Of a DNA stretch of 21,416 bases, positions 984 to 10,646 are shown piece after piece. The position numbers and the translations under genes were made by a program. The notes under the pieces are model-generated. The model was not told the origin of the DNA, made no database searches, and worked only from the letters and a program-made list of their open reading frames with translations. Numbering within the stretch: position 1 is the stretch's first letter; the number at the start of each line of letters is the position of its first letter. The stretch is taken from IMG/VR virus record IMGVR_UViG_3300037189_002135, positions 1 to 21,416 of that record; one strand, 5' to 3'. The DNA is from a virus.

Positions 984-1811
984 TCAATACTTTCTTGCTA
1001 AGAATTTTTCGAGAGTGGTGCCTTCGTATTTGCGGCAAAGGTATGAGAGCGATACAAACATCGGATCGTATGCTCCCTTTGATACTTCATGTTTTACAAT
1101 GATGCCTCGCCAGTGTGCGTTGCCTTGGAACCCTTTGTATTCTTCATCGTGAAGGTAGCAGGCTCCTGCAATTAATCCACATTGTTGTTGACCCCCGGAT
1201 AAGAAGCGTGTGGCAAAGTCTAGTGTTTGTTGATGGCCCATTGTAAATGAGTGTCCGATTGTTTTGAGTCGTGTTGCTGCTGCTCCACCGTATGGTTTAC
1301 CAGTCATGGGGTTTGCCCAGAAATGTGCATAGTAGATTCCGTCGATGTTGACTGGACGCAAATAGTCGTGAACAGTCCAGCCGTGTTGTGTGTAATTAAG
1401 GTCGTGTAAACCTAGTGCGCCTTCTAGTTTTGCATCGCCGTCAATAGCCCGACAGATACGGTTTTCATGGTTGCCTAAAAGCAAATGCCGTTCTGGAAGG
1501 TATTGTTTTTTCTGCCATTTTTTTCTAGCAGTGTTGTGTGTGTTCATTGGCTGACAAAGAATGTCAAAAGCTTTGTTAGCTGCGTCGATGTCTGCGACAT
1601 ATCGTCGGCCTTCGAATTGGCGTTTACCTGTGTCCCATTGGCTTAATGATTCCATATCCGCATGGTCGCCAAGATGAACAATGACATCAGGTTTTTTGTC
1701 CAGAATATATTGACCGATCCAATGTAGATGATCAGTTGGTACGTTTGGTTTGGCTTGTGTATCGGGGATGATTAGGTGTGTTTTACCTATTGATGTGTTT
1801 TCTTCTTCCAT
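984..1811 (-). CDS. Calcineurin-like metallophosphoesterase
   Basis: The 275-aa protein has the ordered metal-binding blocks of the metallophosphoesterase superfamily: IIPDTQ with Asp17, HLGDHAD with Asp49, LLGNHENR (113-118), a later YYAHFW histidine and GHQQ. Such enzymes hydrolyse phosphate mono- or diesters with two divalent metals; the phage substrate is unknown. By eye the usual D-x-H is D-T-Q here, and the usual GHxH is GHQQ. One metal site may therefore be altered, or the protein may belong to a subfamily with these residues. ATG 1809-1811 has a strong GGAGG six bases upstream, and the gene overlaps the DUF2746-like gene by 25 bases. Its place between lysis genes does not itself imply a role in lysis. 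Confidence 0.85.
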   Translation of the reverse strand: MEEENTSIGKTHLIIPDTQAKPNVPTDHLHWIGQYILDKKPDVIVHLGDHADMESLSQWDTGKRQFEGRRYVADIDAANKAFDILCQPMNTHNTARKKWQKKQYLPERHLLLGNHENRICRAIDGDAKLEGALGLHDLNYTQHGWTVHDYLRPVNIDGIYYAHFWANPMTGKPYGGAAATRLKTIGHSFTMGHQQTLDFATRFLSGGQQQCGLIAGACYLHDEEYKGFQGNAHWRGIIVKHEVSKGAYDPMFVSLSYLCRKYEGTTLEKFLARKY

Positions 1812-3146: not shown

Positions 3147-6100
3147 TTACGAACCACGAATCCATAATTGGGCTGCAACAGCCGTGATGGACGAAGTAGA
3201 TGTTGGAAGAGTTGAACCAGTAGCGGTCGCAGACAATCTAGGTGCCAACGGTGTAGCCAAAATACCGATGTTCGAGCCGTTGATAGCGACAGTACCGGTG
3301 TGGTTCGAAAGAACCGCAATCGCATACCTAGTTCCAGCAGTCATGGTGTAACTGGAAGACAGATTGATCGAACGCAAACCTGTGGAACCCAACCATGTGG
3401 TATTCGTCGGAGTCGAAGGAGTCGATGCAGCCAACGTCAACGTGGTCCCATCCCAAGTGTAAATTCCAGCGAAACAAGATGAGATTGTTCCGGCTGTGGT
3501 CACAACCACATTGATGGACGAAACAGTCACATCCCACATAGGAGAAACAAAAGTGAACCAAACTGTTCCGGTTGGGACTGTGATTGCGTTTGCAACAACG
3601 AACCTTGGGATGGTTTCGACGTTTGATGTGGTGGTCCCCAACCATCCTGCAAGCAACGTGTTTGTCACAGCAGTCCCACTAATTTTGGAGGCTGCAATTG
3701 CTGCGCTTGAAGACACGTTTGCATCTGTGATCTGTGACCATTTCAAACCAGTACCGTAAGTGGAATCTGCAATCAATACCTGAGCGTCGGTGCCGACCGT
3801 GCGGACAGTTGCAGCACTACTTGAACGCGTAAGAATGTCGCCCTTCGCGGTCAGTAATGACCGAGGGACAGCCAGTGCAGCCGTAGCGGTATCAGCAGTA
3901 TCAACATAAGTACGCAAATCTTCAACAGCAGACAACGCCGAGATCGCTTCGGTTGCTTTTTGAGCGGCAAAATCGCCAACAGCAACATGACCAGCATCAA
4001 CCGGATGCAATTGATCATTTGTCCAAGCCAATGGATCAGTTTTAACGGAACCAGTAACTTCAGCCCAATCCCATACAGCCCACCCATTAGTAGCAGCAAC
4101 AGTATAAAGTTCAGTAAGTCGTGCAGCCCAAGAACTATCATCAGATTGTTGCTTGTTAGATGGTGGAATTAACAAAGCAAACGATGGAGCATATCCAAGT
4201 GCTGTAGTAATTGAACTGACCATAGTTGATACTTTGGGACTAAAGTCAGTTCCAGCAGTTTCGTTAGAACCAAGAGCAATTACAACAAGTGAAGGCGCAA
4301 GTTGGGAATGATAATAAGACGCCCGTAACATTGATAACCAGTCAGCTGAAGTTGTAACGTTAACTGAGTTGTTGTAGTTATCAAAGTTTGAACCAAACAA
4401 TGCTGAGGTCCATACTCGTGTACCCACGGCCTCATCACCATCGTAAACATATGCACCATCAATAATAATATTGGCAACTGTACAGGTCACAGTAATTGTA
4501 TAGGTGCCACGGGTAAGTGAACCCGTTGACCAACGCACTACATCTTCTTGATCAGTGGTCATAGAATTATCGTAAGTAGGAGTAGTCAGTAAACTGGCAA
4601 CAGTTGAACCACCAGAGTCGGTCACGGCAATTGCAATTGAACCAGAACCAGCAGCAGGACGACGCACTCGATAGACCACTTCGGCAGAAGTGCCGGTAAA
4701 CGCGAGGGTAGCTGTGCCATTTGCAACAAGTGACACGGCCCGCAAACCAAGTCCTCGGGCAGTTCGAGTTAATGTTCCACTGACCGTTGTAAGTGTAGTA
4801 CCGCTACCGTCTTTAATTGTCCATCGCGGTGAGCGATAATCACCGGAATAAGCAGGAACGTATTGACCAATGCGACCGTTAGCATTACATAACTGCGCAA
4901 GGTTAGCAGCAAAGCGGCGCACCATAATCTGCGAAAACGGAGTCGTGCCGTTGTAGCCTTCACCAATTGAATCTCCAACCCATAAGATATCTGCGGTGGC
5001 ATTGCCGGAAGTCTTGCGGGCGTAACGCACAGCGGCAAGATCGCGATGCCAACGGCGAAGAGGAGCGATACCTTCACGTTGAATAACAGCATCAATACCG
5101 GGTGTAGATAACGCAACTGTTTGGGTACCCGAATTGTAAGTAATTGGAGTAGTAGCCGCAATAACACCTGATGCACCAGTAGCACCAGTAACACCTTGCG
5201 GTCCAGTCGCACCCGTTGCGCCTGTTGCCCCAGTTGCACCTGTTGCTCCTGTTGGAATACCAAAATTCAAAACAGGGTAATGAGAAGTCCCAGTGTTAGT
5301 AACAGTCGCTGTTGAACCAGCAGTTAAAGTTGTAACAGTTCCCACAGTTACCGGTGGTCCCGCATAAACAATCGGTGCAGTATTAGATACTGATTGATCA
5401 ACGGTGATGCACTTAACGTGCCAAACACCTTCTAACCAAGATTCGTTTTTGTTCCAACGTTCAACATCGACACCTTGTTGTTCACCAGTAGTGATGCTGT
5501 CAATGAAAACATTACGGATTTCATCACCAATTTTTAACTCAATAATTGATCGTGATTTCATCAACGCATTAAGTTCCGAGAAATCAACGTAAGGATCAGC
5601 ACCAACAGAAAACGCATAATTATGAGACACCGCGTCTTTAATAATGATTGGCAAATAAATTTCTTCTTGACGTTCCGGCACCGGCACAGCACGCAACGTC
5701 CATTTATTCAACACAGCATCTGCCGTATTTGTTGTGCCTGACCACACAAATTCTAATTCTTCATACTCGCCAGATCGCCCATCAATAGGAATCGTAGAAC
5801 CGTCTGAACTTAACGAACCTAAATTAGTAGCATCGCCAACAAACTTAACTGCGATGTCCGTACCGGAAGAAGACTCATCATAATTTGCACCTTCTAAATC
5901 AATACGAATAAATTGTTTGGCTTCAGTCGTACCAAAATTAATTTTGCCAGTACGTAACCAACCACTTGTAGCACGTGTAGAAGTTTCACCGCGTACACCA
6001 TCGTAGTTAGTAGCAAAATACAATTTGTCTTTGACGTTAACAATTGAATGAACTTCGGCTGCGCTTCCATGTGTATTAGTGATCATCAAATCAGTTGCAT

Positions 6101-7688
6101 AAGCTGGTTGTAAATCATCAACAAGTTGACCAAGGTTGATGCGTCCGACCCCGGTGTATTCTTCTAAACTTGTTGGTTTGTAACGGTTCCAGTTGAACCA
6201 AACGTATTGGCCTTTGCCTTCGAACGTGGTGACTCCGCCGTGAAAAGTGGAATCGTATGCGTTGAATGTTCCATCAGTGGTGATGCCGTCTGTTGCGTCA
6301 ATGTAGTTTTCAAGAACAATAACTGGACCGAATGAGATGCCCCCGGTTTGTTGAAAGGTGCCTAATCGAACACCTTTGCTTGTGCCAATTAAAACGTATC
6401 CGGCGTATGAGTACATGGTGTTGATAATTTCGCCGGTTGGTAGGGAAGCAACAGGAGATGGCGGATTTAATTTTGCTGCTGTCGTATCAAATGTGCAACG
6501 ATAAATTGTTGACGTTAATCCTGCTGTTGAAGATGAAAGTTGAATTGGATCGGTTGCAGAAAGATATACTCCGTCAGGACCTAATACGGCTGAAGTGAAA
6601 TGGGGCATCCAATTTTTATCATATGTTGCAATTGTGTCATCATTGGTATCTTTAATCTGTACTAATGAATCATTAGAATTTTCATAATGTTTTGCCAACA
6701 CATAATTGCCTGCAACAAGAACATCAGAATATTCTTTGTTGTTTGCACCATGACGACCAAAAACCCAAGTAGGTGAAACAGAAGCGGAAGTATTACCTGC
6801 AATTGAAATACTTAATTTGTAAACACCTGTTTCTCGTTGACTTACACTAGCAACAAAAACAGTTGTACCAGTTGCAATAGCAGCAGCAGTTGTTCCATTG
6901 TACGCTCGTTGCACACCAACAGTTGTTCCAACAACACTTGTAACCAATAACTGTTCTGAACCAATCAACAGAATCATTCCAGCAGACAATGCGGTATAAC
7001 CAACCGGAGTAGTACTAGTTAACGTAATCGAAGTTACAGAAGAAGAAAAATTACCATTAACAGTTGTGTACGTTGGACGATTAGAAACAGTAAAATAAAT
7101 GGCATTACCATTTGCGCCTAAAGAAGAAATCCATCCAGCAGCAGAAGTGCCTTCTGTGCCAGTGTTACCTTCAGTAAAAGTAAATGTTTCTCCACTGTTG
7201 ATAATTTTTGTAGAACTACCGATACTCCAAGAACTTACAGTTGGATCTGCCACATAATGAGATTGCCAACCATTGTTCAAACCGTTTGAAGATGAATTGC
7301 GAATGTAAATCAAATAATCTTGAATGTTGCACATCCAAGAATTCAAATAAGGATTTGAACTCAGAGTGCTAGTACGCAATGAAGTTGTATTAAGTAACGA
7401 TAATTCGTGTTGACTCCACGGATTAACGTTCAATGATTCATGAAACCGGCGACGACTAGAACCATCAAAAACATCAAACCAATATTGACCTGCACCTAAA
7501 CGAAAATCTGCACCGCTACGTTTCCACACATACACAGTATTAAGTGTTTGTTCAGTAGCTTCAGAATTAAGATCGTTCTGAGTGCGCATTGCTTCGACTG
7601 TGGTGCGTCGAAAGCTGGCAAGGTCCACTTCGTAGTGTTTGCCATTAAGAACAATAGGTAGATGGCTGCGTGTATTTAAAACGCTCAT
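3147..7688 (-). CDS. Large tail fibre/spike with collagen-like stalk and SGNH esterase domain
   Basis: The 1513-aa protein starts at ATG 7686-7688, overlapping the connector stop as ATGA; an upstream ATG at 7763 would run 79 bases into that gene. Residues 1 to about 780 are beta-rich, including a small barrel-like module (about 210-282) and repeated strand-turn patterns that could form a propeller. A Gly-x-Thr collagen-like stalk follows at about 813-838. An SGNH hydrolase comes next: block I VGDSIGEG with Ser907, block III ALGSNE with Asn1142, and block V NDQLHP with Asp1225 and His1228. A beta-sandwich of about 110 residues interrupts blocks I and III. A fibre motif (LTAKGDIL, about 1280-1340) and a C-terminal beta domain close the protein. 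It probably binds the host surface glycan and removes acyl groups from it. Confidence 0.82.
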   Translation of the reverse strand: MSVLNTRSHLPIVLNGKHYEVDLASFRRTTVEAMRTQNDLNSEATEQTLNTVYVWKRSGADFRLGAGQYWFDVFDGSSRRRFHESLNVNPWSQHELSLLNTTSLRTSTLSSNPYLNSWMCNIQDYLIYIRNSSSNGLNNGWQSHYVADPTVSSWSIGSSTKIINSGETFTFTEGNTGTEGTSAAGWISSLGANGNAIYFTVSNRPTYTTVNGNFSSSVTSITLTSTTPVGYTALSAGMILLIGSEQLLVTSVVGTTVGVQRAYNGTTAAAIATGTTVFVASVSQRETGVYKLSISIAGNTSASVSPTWVFGRHGANNKEYSDVLVAGNYVLAKHYENSNDSLVQIKDTNDDTIATYDKNWMPHFTSAVLGPDGVYLSATDPIQLSSSTAGLTSTIYRCTFDTTAAKLNPPSPVASLPTGEIINTMYSYAGYVLIGTSKGVRLGTFQQTGGISFGPVIVLENYIDATDGITTDGTFNAYDSTFHGGVTTFEGKGQYVWFNWNRYKPTSLEEYTGVGRINLGQLVDDLQPAYATDLMITNTHGSAAEVHSIVNVKDKLYFATNYDGVRGETSTRATSGWLRTGKINFGTTEAKQFIRIDLEGANYDESSSGTDIAVKFVGDATNLGSLSSDGSTIPIDGRSGEYEELEFVWSGTTNTADAVLNKWTLRAVPVPERQEEIYLPIIIKDAVSHNYAFSVGADPYVDFSELNALMKSRSIIELKIGDEIRNVFIDSITTGEQQGVDVERWNKNESWLEGVWHVKCITVDQSVSNTAPIVYAGPPVTVGTVTTLTAGSTATVTNTGTSHYPVLNFGIPTGATGATGATGATGATGPQGVTGATGASGVIAATTPITYNSGTQTVALSTPGIDAVIQREGIAPLRRWHRDLAAVRYARKTSGNATADILWVGDSIGEGYNGTTPFSQIMVRRFAANLAQLCNANGRIGQYVPAYSGDYRSPRWTIKDGSGTTLTTVSGTLTRTARGLGLRAVSLVANGTATLAFTGTSAEVVYRVRRPAAGSGSIAIAVTDSGGSTVASLLTTPTYDNSMTTDQEDVVRWSTGSLTRGTYTITVTCTVANIIIDGAYVYDGDEAVGTRVWTSALFGSNFDNYNNSVNVTTSADWLSMLRASYYHSQLAPSLVVIALGSNETAGTDFSPKVSTMVSSITTALGYAPSFALLIPPSNKQQSDDSSWAARLTELYTVAATNGWAVWDWAEVTGSVKTDPLAWTNDQLHPVDAGHVAVGDFAAQKATEAISALSAVEDLRTYVDTADTATAALAVPRSLLTAKGDILTRSSSAATVRTVGTDAQVLIADSTYGTGLKWSQITDANVSSSAAIAASKISGTAVTNTLLAGWLGTTTSNVETIPRFVVANAITVPTGTVWFTFVSPMWDVTVSSINVVVTTAGTISSCFAGIYTWDGTTLTLAASTPSTPTNTTWLGSTGLRSINLSSSYTMTAGTRYAIAVLSNHTGTVAINGSNIGILATPLAPRLSATATGSTLPTSTSSITAVAAQLWIRGS
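5175..5249 (-). repeat. Collagen-like Gly-x-Thr/Gly-x-x coding repeat
   Basis: Twenty-five codons encode Gly-Ala-Thr triplets with one Gly-Pro-Gln and minor variants, such as GATGATGATGATGPQG. At the DNA level this is a degenerate 9-base repeat (plus strand cagttgcac/cctgttgct type). Such stalks trimerise in phage fibres, and their DNA is prone to slippage and recombination. Here it separates the virion-anchoring half of the fibre from the enzymatic tip. Confidence 0.9.
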
Positions 7689-8578
7689 ACGCCCATGAAC
7701 CCATAAAGATCGAGAAGACGGCGGGACTCTTCGCTGGTACGCCGGTCTGCTTCCATACGCCAACGCAATGCTTGTTTAGCGTAGGTTTCGGCTGGAACTT
7801 CTAACGCGTTACGTGATTGTCCTTGACGGGTGAAATCTAAACGTAATGCTTCTTTGTCGTACATTAAACGACTGGCTGCACCAAAGGTAAGAATGTCTTC
7901 TGCTGAGATTGGTAAACCTACTGTGGTTTGTAAATTTGTAGTAGTAGATAAAGAAGTGGTGTCTAAAGTTTTAGCGTATGTGACACGAACATCAACATCT
8001 TCTTTGTAAAAACGACCGCGATCAATTTGAATTGAATAACCTGATGCATAATCGGCTGTGTCTTGATTGCGAACAAGTCGTGTTACGAGATTAAAAGATG
8101 GATACCCAACGCCGTCAAAGCTTTTTCGTTCCGCATCAAGAATACGGAATACTTCTCCTGTTGCCCCAGCTAAATCAATTTGATTTACATTGGCAGGAAA
8201 GTTGAGTGTGGTTGTAACAACTTTGTAAATGGATCGTGGAATAGCACGAAGTTCTTGAACAACCTCATTGAAAATAGCTTGCTTAGGGAATCGTGGTTCA
8301 ACATACATCGGGATACCGCCAGTATGACTGACAGCATCAGTGTTATTCCAACCACGTAAAACAGTTAACGTAGAACCAGAAAGATCCATCACAAGCATTT
8401 GCTCATAATCAAGTTCGATAACTGAACCAATGGCAAGATCCGGAGTCGGAGTGTACCCAGTAAGAATAGAAGTCGTAGAAGAATTGATTGTTGCACTTAA
8501 AGTATTAACACGATCACGACCAACAGCACCATCAAGTTTTGATTTAGTCGAATAAACAATGTTGTCAATAGTACTCAA
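7685..8578 (-). CDS. Putative head-tail connector/adaptor protein
   Basis: This 297-aa protein lies between the head genes and the fibre gene, where a head completion or adaptor protein is expected. An N-terminal beta module (about residues 25-93, with YEQMLVMDLSGSTLTVLRGW) is followed by a helix, NEVVQELRAIPRSIYKV. A beta-rich middle comes next, and then C-terminal helices ending MEADRRTSEESRRLLDLYG, an arrangement I associate with actinophage connectors. The start is TTG (8576-8578), overlapping the glycosyltransferase stop as TTGA, with GAGG five bases upstream. No ATG in the first residues offers an alternative. A short tail-tube or adaptor protein of a podovirus would fit as well; the exact position in the virion cannot be settled from sequence. 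Confidence 0.6.
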   Translation of the reverse strand: MSTIDNIVYSTKSKLDGAVGRDRVNTLSATINSSTTSILTGYTPTPDLAIGSVIELDYEQMLVMDLSGSTLTVLRGWNNTDAVSHTGGIPMYVEPRFPKQAIFNEVVQELRAIPRSIYKVVTTTLNFPANVNQIDLAGATGEVFRILDAERKSFDGVGYPSFNLVTRLVRNQDTADYASGYSIQIDRGRFYKEDVDVRVTYAKTLDTTSLSTTTNLQTTVGLPISAEDILTFGAASRLMYDKEALRLDFTRQGQSRNALEVPAETYAKQALRWRMEADRRTSEESRRLLDLYGFMGV

Positions 8579-9411
8579 GGCAACCTCAATTCGGTCTTGG
8601 GTTTTTGATTATGAGATTGGTATTCATCCCATAACTCTTCATTCAATTCTAACGTTTTAATATGACCGGTGCGAACACCAGTATGAACATACGTTGCATA
8701 CCCCAAAGAATTGGCACGCATACAAAACGCGATATCCTCCCCGAACTGCACCCCCTTAGATAAACCCTCCACAAACCAAGGATGTGGATTAGGTTGCCCA
8801 AACGCATCAGTACTGAAACCATCTGGATACGGTTTAGCCATATGCTGCAACACTTGTTTATGCACAAGAACAAACGCTGCGCCCGTAGCCAAAGCTTTAA
8901 CTAAAGTATTACGCGGATAATTTTCAATGGGTTCCGGAACAACCTGATCAGTCCCATCAAAAGCTTTGCGTGTTGCTCCAGCATAAATAGTTGGATACAT
9001 ACGACTTCGACCACCGGCAAAACACAAACCACCAATAATGTAACATTTTGGTTTTCTTGCTTTAGCTTTTCGATCCCCGTCATAAGCATGACCCAACAGT
9101 TGACATAAAGCATCTTTGTCGAAAGTCATATCAGAATCAATCATCATCAACCAATCCACATTTTTATAGATTGGATCTTTAAGAAACGCATCAACAATTT
9201 GCGAACGACCCTCCGCCACGCGCGGACCAGTCAATAACTCAATCGACCCACCGTTCACAATATGTTTGCATCCCGGAGTTCCATCGTCATGAACCATGTC
9301 ATAACGACATAAACTATTCCAAGAAGAGAACGTTTCATGCTTGATTGAACCAGCACTCAACGTAGAAATAGCAACACTTACAGCAGGATGAGGACGAGGA
9401 ACTTCTTGCAT
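8575..9411 (-). CDS. GT-A fold glycosyltransferase encoded among head genes
   Basis: The 278-aa protein has the marks of a GT-A (family 2-like) glycosyltransferase. They are an N-terminal VSVAIST strand, AEGRSQIVDAFL (66-77), and a DxD-type metal/nucleotide-sugar motif at Asp92-Ser-Asp94 in WLMMIDSDMTF. An acidic GEDIAF follows (223-228), then RTGHIKT with His249, the usual position of a third metal ligand. No membrane helix is seen, so it should be soluble. It sits directly after the major capsid gene, which suggests it may glycosylate a virion protein; modification of a host glycan is the alternative. ATG 9409-9411 has a perfect AAGGAGG four bases upstream, preceded by a strong hairpin. Confidence 0.78.
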   Translation of the reverse strand: MQEVPRPHPAVSVAISTLSAGSIKHETFSSWNSLCRYDMVHDDGTPGCKHIVNGGSIELLTGPRVAEGRSQIVDAFLKDPIYKNVDWLMMIDSDMTFDKDALCQLLGHAYDGDRKAKARKPKCYIIGGLCFAGGRSRMYPTIYAGATRKAFDGTDQVVPEPIENYPRNTLVKALATGAAFVLVHKQVLQHMAKPYPDGFSTDAFGQPNPHPWFVEGLSKGVQFGEDIAFCMRANSLGYATYVHTGVRTGHIKTLELNEELWDEYQSHNQKPKTELRLP

Positions 9412-9500: not shown

Positions 9501-10646
9501 TCAGTAACCAAGGTTGGTCATACGGAACATATGCTTCTGGCCCTTGACCTGAAGACCTTCCTCACACACAACCTGACCCTTATCCGCATCACCGGTTTTT
9601 GCCAGCGACTCAAACACCAGCGGGCGAAGGACACGACGCGTCACAAGATCACGCTTAATAGCAAACGCATCAATGGGAGACACCCAACGGTTACGCACAA
9701 TCGGAAGCGAACCATACTCAGTCTCCACAAACGAAGTCGAAACACGACCACGCTTCGGATCATCAACCGTTTGACGAACAATAGCGGTATTACCGATATC
9801 GTTCAGATCCACAAGGCTGTTCGGATTCACAACAAGACGATCAGGAAGACCGCCAGCGTTGTAGCACTTCTGAAGGTTCGTCTGGACCGTAAGCGCCGTA
9901 AGCGTAGTGCTAGAGGCATCAACGTTAGTGGTAAGGAAATATGCCAGACCACCGGTCGTACGAATCTTCGAGCTGGTCGAGTTGTAGTACGAACCGTACA
10001 GGAACGCCTGCTCACGAGACTGGCTGTTCTCATAGGTACGAAGATGCAGTTGATGCGCCCACTGATCCGGAATACCATAACGCGGCACGACACGGCTAGT
10101 ACCAGTCATCTGAATAGCAGTCGGACCGAAGATCTGAGTGCAGTTCGTGGACTTGTTGGTGTCATCCGCACGGAAGTTAGCCGGATCGGAACCTTCAGCA
10201 AGAGCAGTACCAAGACCAATGATCACAGCACCAGCAGCATAATTGGTAGCAGTCCCAGCAAGCGCACGAGTGATCGTAAGAGCATCAGTCGAAATGGCGG
10301 TAACACGCACAACCTCAGGAGTCGCAACAGCAGCCTTGCGGATAGCAAGAACATCACCAGTGCTGAACTTGATACCATCACCAGCGGCCACGTTAAGAGT
10401 CGTGTCGCCAGTAGTCACAGCAGTAGTAGCAGAAACAGTAGAACGAGGAGCGAGGTTGCGCTCATCAAGCCACTGGAACTCAATCTGATCAACCGGTCGT
10501 TGTGACAGAACAGACATACCGTCCGACGCCATACCAGTCAGGAGCGGAAGCTCCTCGGGCGAGTACATATAAATGGCCTCGTCCATGTTAACGATAAGAC
10601 CATTAGTCAGATCGTAAGAAGTAGCGGTACCCGAAAGAGTAGCCAT
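9501..10646 (-). CDS. Major capsid protein, SU10/DUF5309-like HK97 fold
   Basis: The 381-aa protein matches the DUF5309 / SU10-type major capsid family as I remember it. It has an N-terminal segment ending PEELPLLTGM, a VDQIEFQWLDE strand, and an inserted beta module (about 72-145). Then come a CTQIFGPTAIQMTGTS segment typical of the family, a TGGLAYFL helix region, and a C-terminal VVCEEGLQVKGQKHMFRMTNL. It forms the icosahedral shell with the scaffold gene encoded two genes upstream. The Shine-Dalgarno AAAGGA overlaps the stop of the preceding gene, six bases away. Codons favour C in the third position more than in the neighbours (30 of 60 bases are G or C at 9721-9780, against 22 of 60 at 16021-16080), as expected for the most expressed gene. 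Confidence 0.9.
   Translation of the reverse strand: MATLSGTATSYDLTNGLIVNMDEAIYMYSPEELPLLTGMASDGMSVLSQRPVDQIEFQWLDERNLAPRSTVSATTAVTTGDTTLNVAAGDGIKFSTGDVLAIRKAAVATPEVVRVTAISTDALTITRALAGTATNYAAGAVIIGLGTALAEGSDPANFRADDTNKSTNCTQIFGPTAIQMTGTSRVVPRYGIPDQWAHQLHLRTYENSQSREQAFLYGSYYNSTSSKIRTTGGLAYFLTTNVDASSTTLTALTVQTNLQKCYNAGGLPDRLVVNPNSLVDLNDIGNTAIVRQTVDDPKRGRVSTSFVETEYGSLPIVRNRWVSPIDAFAIKRDLVTRRVLRPLVFESLAKTGDADKGQVVCEEGLQVKGQKHMFRMTNLGY

Follow-up and report, generated by a model that had tools for sequence, protein, structure and literature searches.

A tail fiber of an uncultured phage carries a predicted SGNH esterase domain with Ape1-like architecture

The tail fiber of an uncultured phage contains a predicted SGNH/GDSL esterase domain (positions 3930..5105, minus strand, insert included) that is built like the peptidoglycan esterase Ape1, with a carbohydrate-binding-like beta-sandwich inserted into the catalytic core. 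We put at roughly two in three the probability that this domain is an active SGNH O-acetylesterase which removes O-acetyl groups from a glycan on the host surface during adsorption. The DNA analyzed, called the window here, is the whole of an IMG/VR virus record of 21,416 bases and is perhaps a genome fragment. A search of 50,697 phage records found no DNA-level relative of the window as a whole.

The fiber gene (3147..7688, minus strand) encodes 1513 amino acids from an ATG at 7688, where it overlaps the stop codon of the upstream gene in an ATGA. Residue numbers follow the sequence-only reading that preceded this analysis and are counted from that ATG; the listed open reading frame is 25 residues longer. 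The N-terminal half, which is probably the virion-proximal part, includes a segment (5532..6620, minus strand) related to phrog_11667 and to gp47 of the Streptomyces Manuelvirus WRightOn (24% identity to gp47), and the contigs most similar to the fiber's distal half do not match this segment. Before the esterase domain, as had been proposed, there is a collagen-like stretch of GATGATG type (5166..5252, minus strand; residues 813-841). It forms a short stalk of about 29 residues and scores 16.7 bits against PF01391, under the cut-off of 27.2. Beyond the esterase, a linker and tip make up the C-terminal part (3150..3929, minus strand), which lies within a stretch common to two other viral contigs, L016 and L004, at 68-70% identity. 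The tip is probably beta-rich and is likely to make the receptor contact.

The sequence-only reading had picked out three motifs, namely GDS with Ser907, GSNE with Asn1142, and DQLH with Asp1225 and His1228, and all three lie exactly where it placed them in the fiber. Ser907, the predicted nucleophile, belongs to the block I motif GDSIGEG (4956..4976, minus strand, with GDS at 4976-4968). Asn1142 of block III (4260..4271, minus strand) and the block II glycine, Gly1099 (4392..4394, minus strand), are predicted to contribute to the oxyanion hole, and block V (4005..4016, minus strand) supplies the predicted catalytic residues Asp1225 and His1228. A gap of roughly 230 residues between blocks I and III had been attributed to an insert. 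The distance from Ser907 to Asn1142 is 235 residues and the insert is indeed present, but its position can be stated more narrowly, as it lies strictly between blocks I and II.

The order of the motifs says little by itself, since shuffling the protein 5000 times gave 25 copies with a similar series, and we relied instead on the evidence of the family. The domain was aligned across 20 viral loci (the window and 19 viral contigs, which are 19-81% identical to the window). The block I serine is kept in all 19 aligned sequences that cover the site and the block III asparagine in 18 of 18. The block II glycine is present in 17 of 18, whereas block V retains its histidine in 17 of 17 and its aspartate in 16 of 17. 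Thus, the earlier impression that the domain looks active is borne out insofar as catalysis can be inferred from residues that are intact here and near-invariant in relatives. In one relative (L025, 4850-5977), the block V aspartate is lost and the motif reads SKKH; to judge from this change, that protein is possibly inactive.

A search of solved structures with the single protein sequence found only the collagen-like repeat, and profiles were therefore needed to place the domain. A scan of NCBIfam gave nothing useful. The isolated domain scores 37.8 bits against PF13472 (Lipase_GDSL_2), over the Pfam cut-off of 32.9. Furthermore, phrog_15881, which carries the label "tail protein", matches residues 30-390 of the 399-aa domain (E 3e-29) and is matched by 19 of the 20 members of the alignment.

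Structure prediction and comparison with known esterases, which had been suggested as a check on the domain, gave a predicted alpha/beta SGNH fold that superposes on Ape1. AlphaFold2, supplied with the 20-sequence alignment, returned a confident model (pTM 0.87, mean pLDDT 80.8). In it, the first core strand leads into block I and a helix, after which the chain forms a beta-sandwich region of roughly 130-140 residues; the glycine of block II and the asparagine of block III follow this region, and the DxxH motif precedes the last helix. The model resembles many solved SGNH enzymes (Z 14.8-28.4), and the best match over its whole length, insert included, is Ape1 of N. meningitidis (4k3u; Z 28.4, 312 residues at 2.7 Å). 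Two further Ape1 structures, 8gkd and 8gld, each give Z 25.4, with a Foldseek E value of 1.2e-15 for 8gkd, whereas the other listed SGNH enzymes reach Z of about 18 or less over about 150-200 residues, a length that covers the core but leaves out most of the insert. That the serine, histidine and aspartate of the model would come within hydrogen-bonding distance is only implied, by the 2.7 Å superposition on Ape1. Identity to Ape1 is about 17% in the structural alignment. When the family profile is aligned with the N. meningitidis protein, GTNE falls opposite block III, DGVH opposite block V and GDSHTAG opposite block I, the last of these pieces being weak by itself. Predicted viral proteins with a similar structure include those of Rhodococcus phage ReqiPoco6, Klebsiella phage Sin4 and Proteus phage Mydo.

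The inserted beta-sandwich (4428..4841, minus strand) had been described as carbohydrate-binding-like, and its predicted fold agrees with that description. When modeled alone (pTM 0.80), it matches carbohydrate-binding modules of the CBM6/35/61 type and the N-terminal domains of CE2 esterases at Z of about 8-9.5, scores that are tied with those of other jelly-rolls, so that we do not assign it to one CBM family. At the sequence level, 6 of 18 members show a weak relationship to CE2_N, the best at E 0.001, and a CE2 esterase with a solved structure is weakly matched as well (E 0.0018). The CBM match is generic, and "carbohydrate-binding-like" is a fair term for the insert when used as a statement about its modeled fold. 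In comparisons with the closest relatives, the insert has diverged at roughly double the rate of the catalytic core (dN of about 0.31 versus 0.14), which would fit adaptation to variable glycans.

The same domain with its insert occurs in minor tail proteins of cultured phages, namely Arthrobacter Amigovirus and BrayBeast, and Gordonia phages Gudmit, Sekhmet and Samman98. These homologs, which are annotated as minor tail protein, esterase or hydrolase, are 25-27% identical over the domain; the hosts of the cultured phages that sequence searches brought up are Gram-positive actinobacteria (Arthrobacter and Gordonia). In BrayBeast, a second open frame (L007, 5145-5937, minus strand) matches the esterase profile with the insert region skipped, which suggests a plain SGNH protein encoded near the inserted one. 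Against the closest full relative of the window's domain, dN is 0.20 and dS is saturated, and no dN/dS can be given for the closest pairs for this reason. Two more distant relatives yield dN/dS of 0.13-0.16. Together, these figures indicate purifying selection.

From the collagen-like stretch onward (3150-5258), the fiber is 66-73% identical to contigs L003, L004, L010, L011 and L016, as far as these reach. The approximately 810 residues before that stretch match, among the loci tested, only the Streptomyces phage protein (24%). This mismatch of anchors is informative for L003, L010, L011 and L016 because these contigs extend upstream of the stalk; L004 begins inside the esterase domain and says nothing about the anchor. 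In L004 a tape-measure gene lies downstream, whereas the known part of the window is without one, and GC content ranges over 39-65% among the five module-sharing contigs. Since the distal part is shared and the anchors are unmatched, the stalk looks like the edge of an exchangeable distal module that runs from the collagen-like stretch to the C-terminus.

Searches of bacterial genomes returned no relative when the close subgroup was used; with the broader subgroup, relatives came up in Blastococcus, Hamadaea and Haloferula. The Hamadaea assembly holds a fiber-like relative that is probably of prophage origin. The Blastococcus proteins (L030-L034) are cell-encoded and carry the SGNH domain with its insert after a Thr-rich linker. 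In L030, the one Blastococcus protein scanned, a cutinase domain precedes the SGNH domain, so members of the family may well differ in the substrates they act on.

The layout of the domain is already known, as it is seen both in Ape1 and in other phage tail proteins. The Ape1 enzymes of N. meningitidis (4k3u and 4k7j) and C. jejuni (8gkd) share with it the SGNH core and a carbohydrate-binding-like sandwich inserted after block I; in Ape1, the CBM35-like domain is inserted within the SGNH domain (PMC9487903), spans residues 104-221, and has been proposed to hold the enzyme on the cell wall (PMC6174289). However, Ape1 is a free-standing periplasmic enzyme of the cell, encoded near patB, whereas the domain described here belongs to a 1513-aa virion fiber that also has a collagen-like stalk and a distal portion and is encoded among capsid, endolysin and other phage genes. 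For this reason we call it Ape1-like rather than Ape1. CE2 esterases (4xvh, 2waa and 2wab) also combine an SGNH core with a jelly-roll weakly related to the insert, but theirs lies N-terminal to the core. The actinophage minor tail proteins that match phrog_15881 have both domain and insert, yet they are shorter (377-597 aa), end in the esterase domain without the C-terminal part, and are putative in function.

Among phage proteins with demonstrated activity, the tailspike gp41 of Acinetobacter phage Aristophanes has an SGNH domain modeled on Ape1 4K7J and is a proven capsule deacetylase that removes an O-acetyl group (PMC8471582). It is likewise a receptor-binding protein with an Ape1-modeled domain, although it belongs to another phage group with a Gram-negative host and is likened to the fiber here by its published description. 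Coliphage G7C gp63.1 (4QNL) is a virion-borne SGNH-type O-deacetylase that is required for infection (PMC13123978); it is absent from the best 50 structural matches to our model, an absence that is no evidence of difference. SGNH fibers of Klebsiella prophages are active esterases (PMC13123978), and spikes of Klebsiella prophages reach DALI Z scores above 30 to Ape1 (PMC12115436). In a survey of Curtobacterium prophages, too, tail proteins that resemble Ape1 4K7J and have a central beta-barrel were described (PMC9862828).

The sequence-only reading took the domain for a probable deacylase of a host surface glycan. Its fold, residues, insert and place after the stalk all held up, and the precedents of Aristophanes gp41, G7C gp63.1 and the Klebsiella prophage fibers make the deacylase role the most probable one. 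The data themselves show the sequence, its conservation, the predicted fold, the Ape1-like layout and the sharing of the distal module; we infer the catalytic activity, the acetyl leaving group, the binding of a glycan and the role in adsorption. On this reading, the fiber would present an active serine O-acetylesterase between its short stalk and its distal tip. Once the tip touches the cell, the sandwich may hold a glycan chain beside the active site, where Ser907, activated by His1228 and Asp1225 and aided by an oxyanion hole of Gly1099 and Asn1142, would remove O-acetyl groups from the cell-surface glycan. Such deacetylation could either alter the receptor in a way that makes binding productive or allow the virion to move down to its final receptor.

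The substrate could also be peptidoglycan of the cell wall, a serious alternative given that the nearest fold belongs to a peptidoglycan esterase. The domain would then de-O-acetylate MurNAc at C6, as Ape1 does; its task would be to open a path for an enzyme that cuts the wall, not to modify a receptor. Consistent with this idea are the rank of Ape1 as the best match to the whole model, insert included, the wall-holding role proposed for the insert of Ape1 (PMC6174289), and the Gram-positive hosts of the cultured relatives. However, the activity proven for Ape1-modeled phage proteins is capsule deacetylation (PMC8471582), substrate is poorly predicted by the SGNH fold, and identity to Ape1 is low. 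Moreover, no muramidase was identified in the window, whose endolysin is an amidase. The match to Ape1 fits a peptidoglycan substrate just as well as a surface glycan; we regard such a substrate as rather unlikely, although it is the most serious competitor to surface-glycan deacetylation.

Binding of a glycan without turnover is also conceivable, and the relative that lacks its block V aspartate might hint at a catalytically weak or dead esterase that is retained as a lectin. Against this, every catalytic residue is kept in the window and likewise in nearly all relatives, and the faster change of the sandwich than of the core is the reverse of what a purely lectin-like role predicts, which makes such a role improbable. 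Even less credible is an SGNH O-acyltransferase that adds acyl groups in the manner of PatB or OatA. The SGNH domain of OatA is indeed among the structural matches (Z of about 15.7), but the esterase Ape1 is matched far better, no AT3 or MBOAT acyl-donor membrane partner was identified among the scanned window proteins, and a virion would hardly have access to an activated donor.

This analysis adds the precise architectural match, the stalk-bounded module, the relatives in culture and the placement of the insert between blocks I and II. The vague labels "SGNH esterase" and "tail protein" are thereby sharpened to an Ape1-type architecture with a built-in putative binding domain and named residues, and a case is added of probable receptor-modifying enzymes that move between phages as a stalk-bounded module. 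Cultured relatives such as Arthrobacter phage Amigo and Gordonia phage Sekhmet make the function testable. A bolder and rather doubtful proposal is that an Ape1-type cassette of stalk, SGNH domain with inserted binding domain, and tip is widespread and passes as a whole from phages of one tail type to those of another; in bacteria with exposed walls, its target would be O-acetylated peptidoglycan or a wall polymer. If true, wall de-O-acetylation by tail fibers would be an unrecognized entry step.

The genes around the fiber run along the minus strand from an open-ended 1683-aa protein, the largest of the window and without a match among phages, through several genes without clear families to an SU10-type major capsid protein that matches phages from many hosts. 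These are followed by a glycosyltransferase-like gene, a 297-aa gene, the tail fiber, an amidase endolysin with peptidoglycan-binding repeats, a small protein and a metallophosphoesterase. From capsid to fiber, the gene order is like that of the Streptomyces Beephvirinae phage WRightOn, in which three window proteins (the 372-aa protein, the 297-aa protein and the fiber) have weak matches. The glycosyltransferase-like gene (8575-9411, minus strand; phrog_34859 and phrog_1574), which lies between the capsid gene and the fiber cluster, could glycosylate virion proteins. The metallophosphoesterase gene (984-1811, minus strand) adjoins the lysis genes; its product is 50-70% identical to counterparts in the fiber-domain contigs L003, L011, L014, L016, L020 and L024, where it is also encoded close to the fiber.

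A small domain of the fiber (residues 229-304 in numbering from a TTG start) recurs in the preceding gene (8300-8518, minus strand; E 2e-5). A look-alike that matches tail-fiber PHROGs is found at about residues 75-141 of the capsid protein (gene 9501-10646), and one domain is thus possibly common to three neighboring virion proteins.
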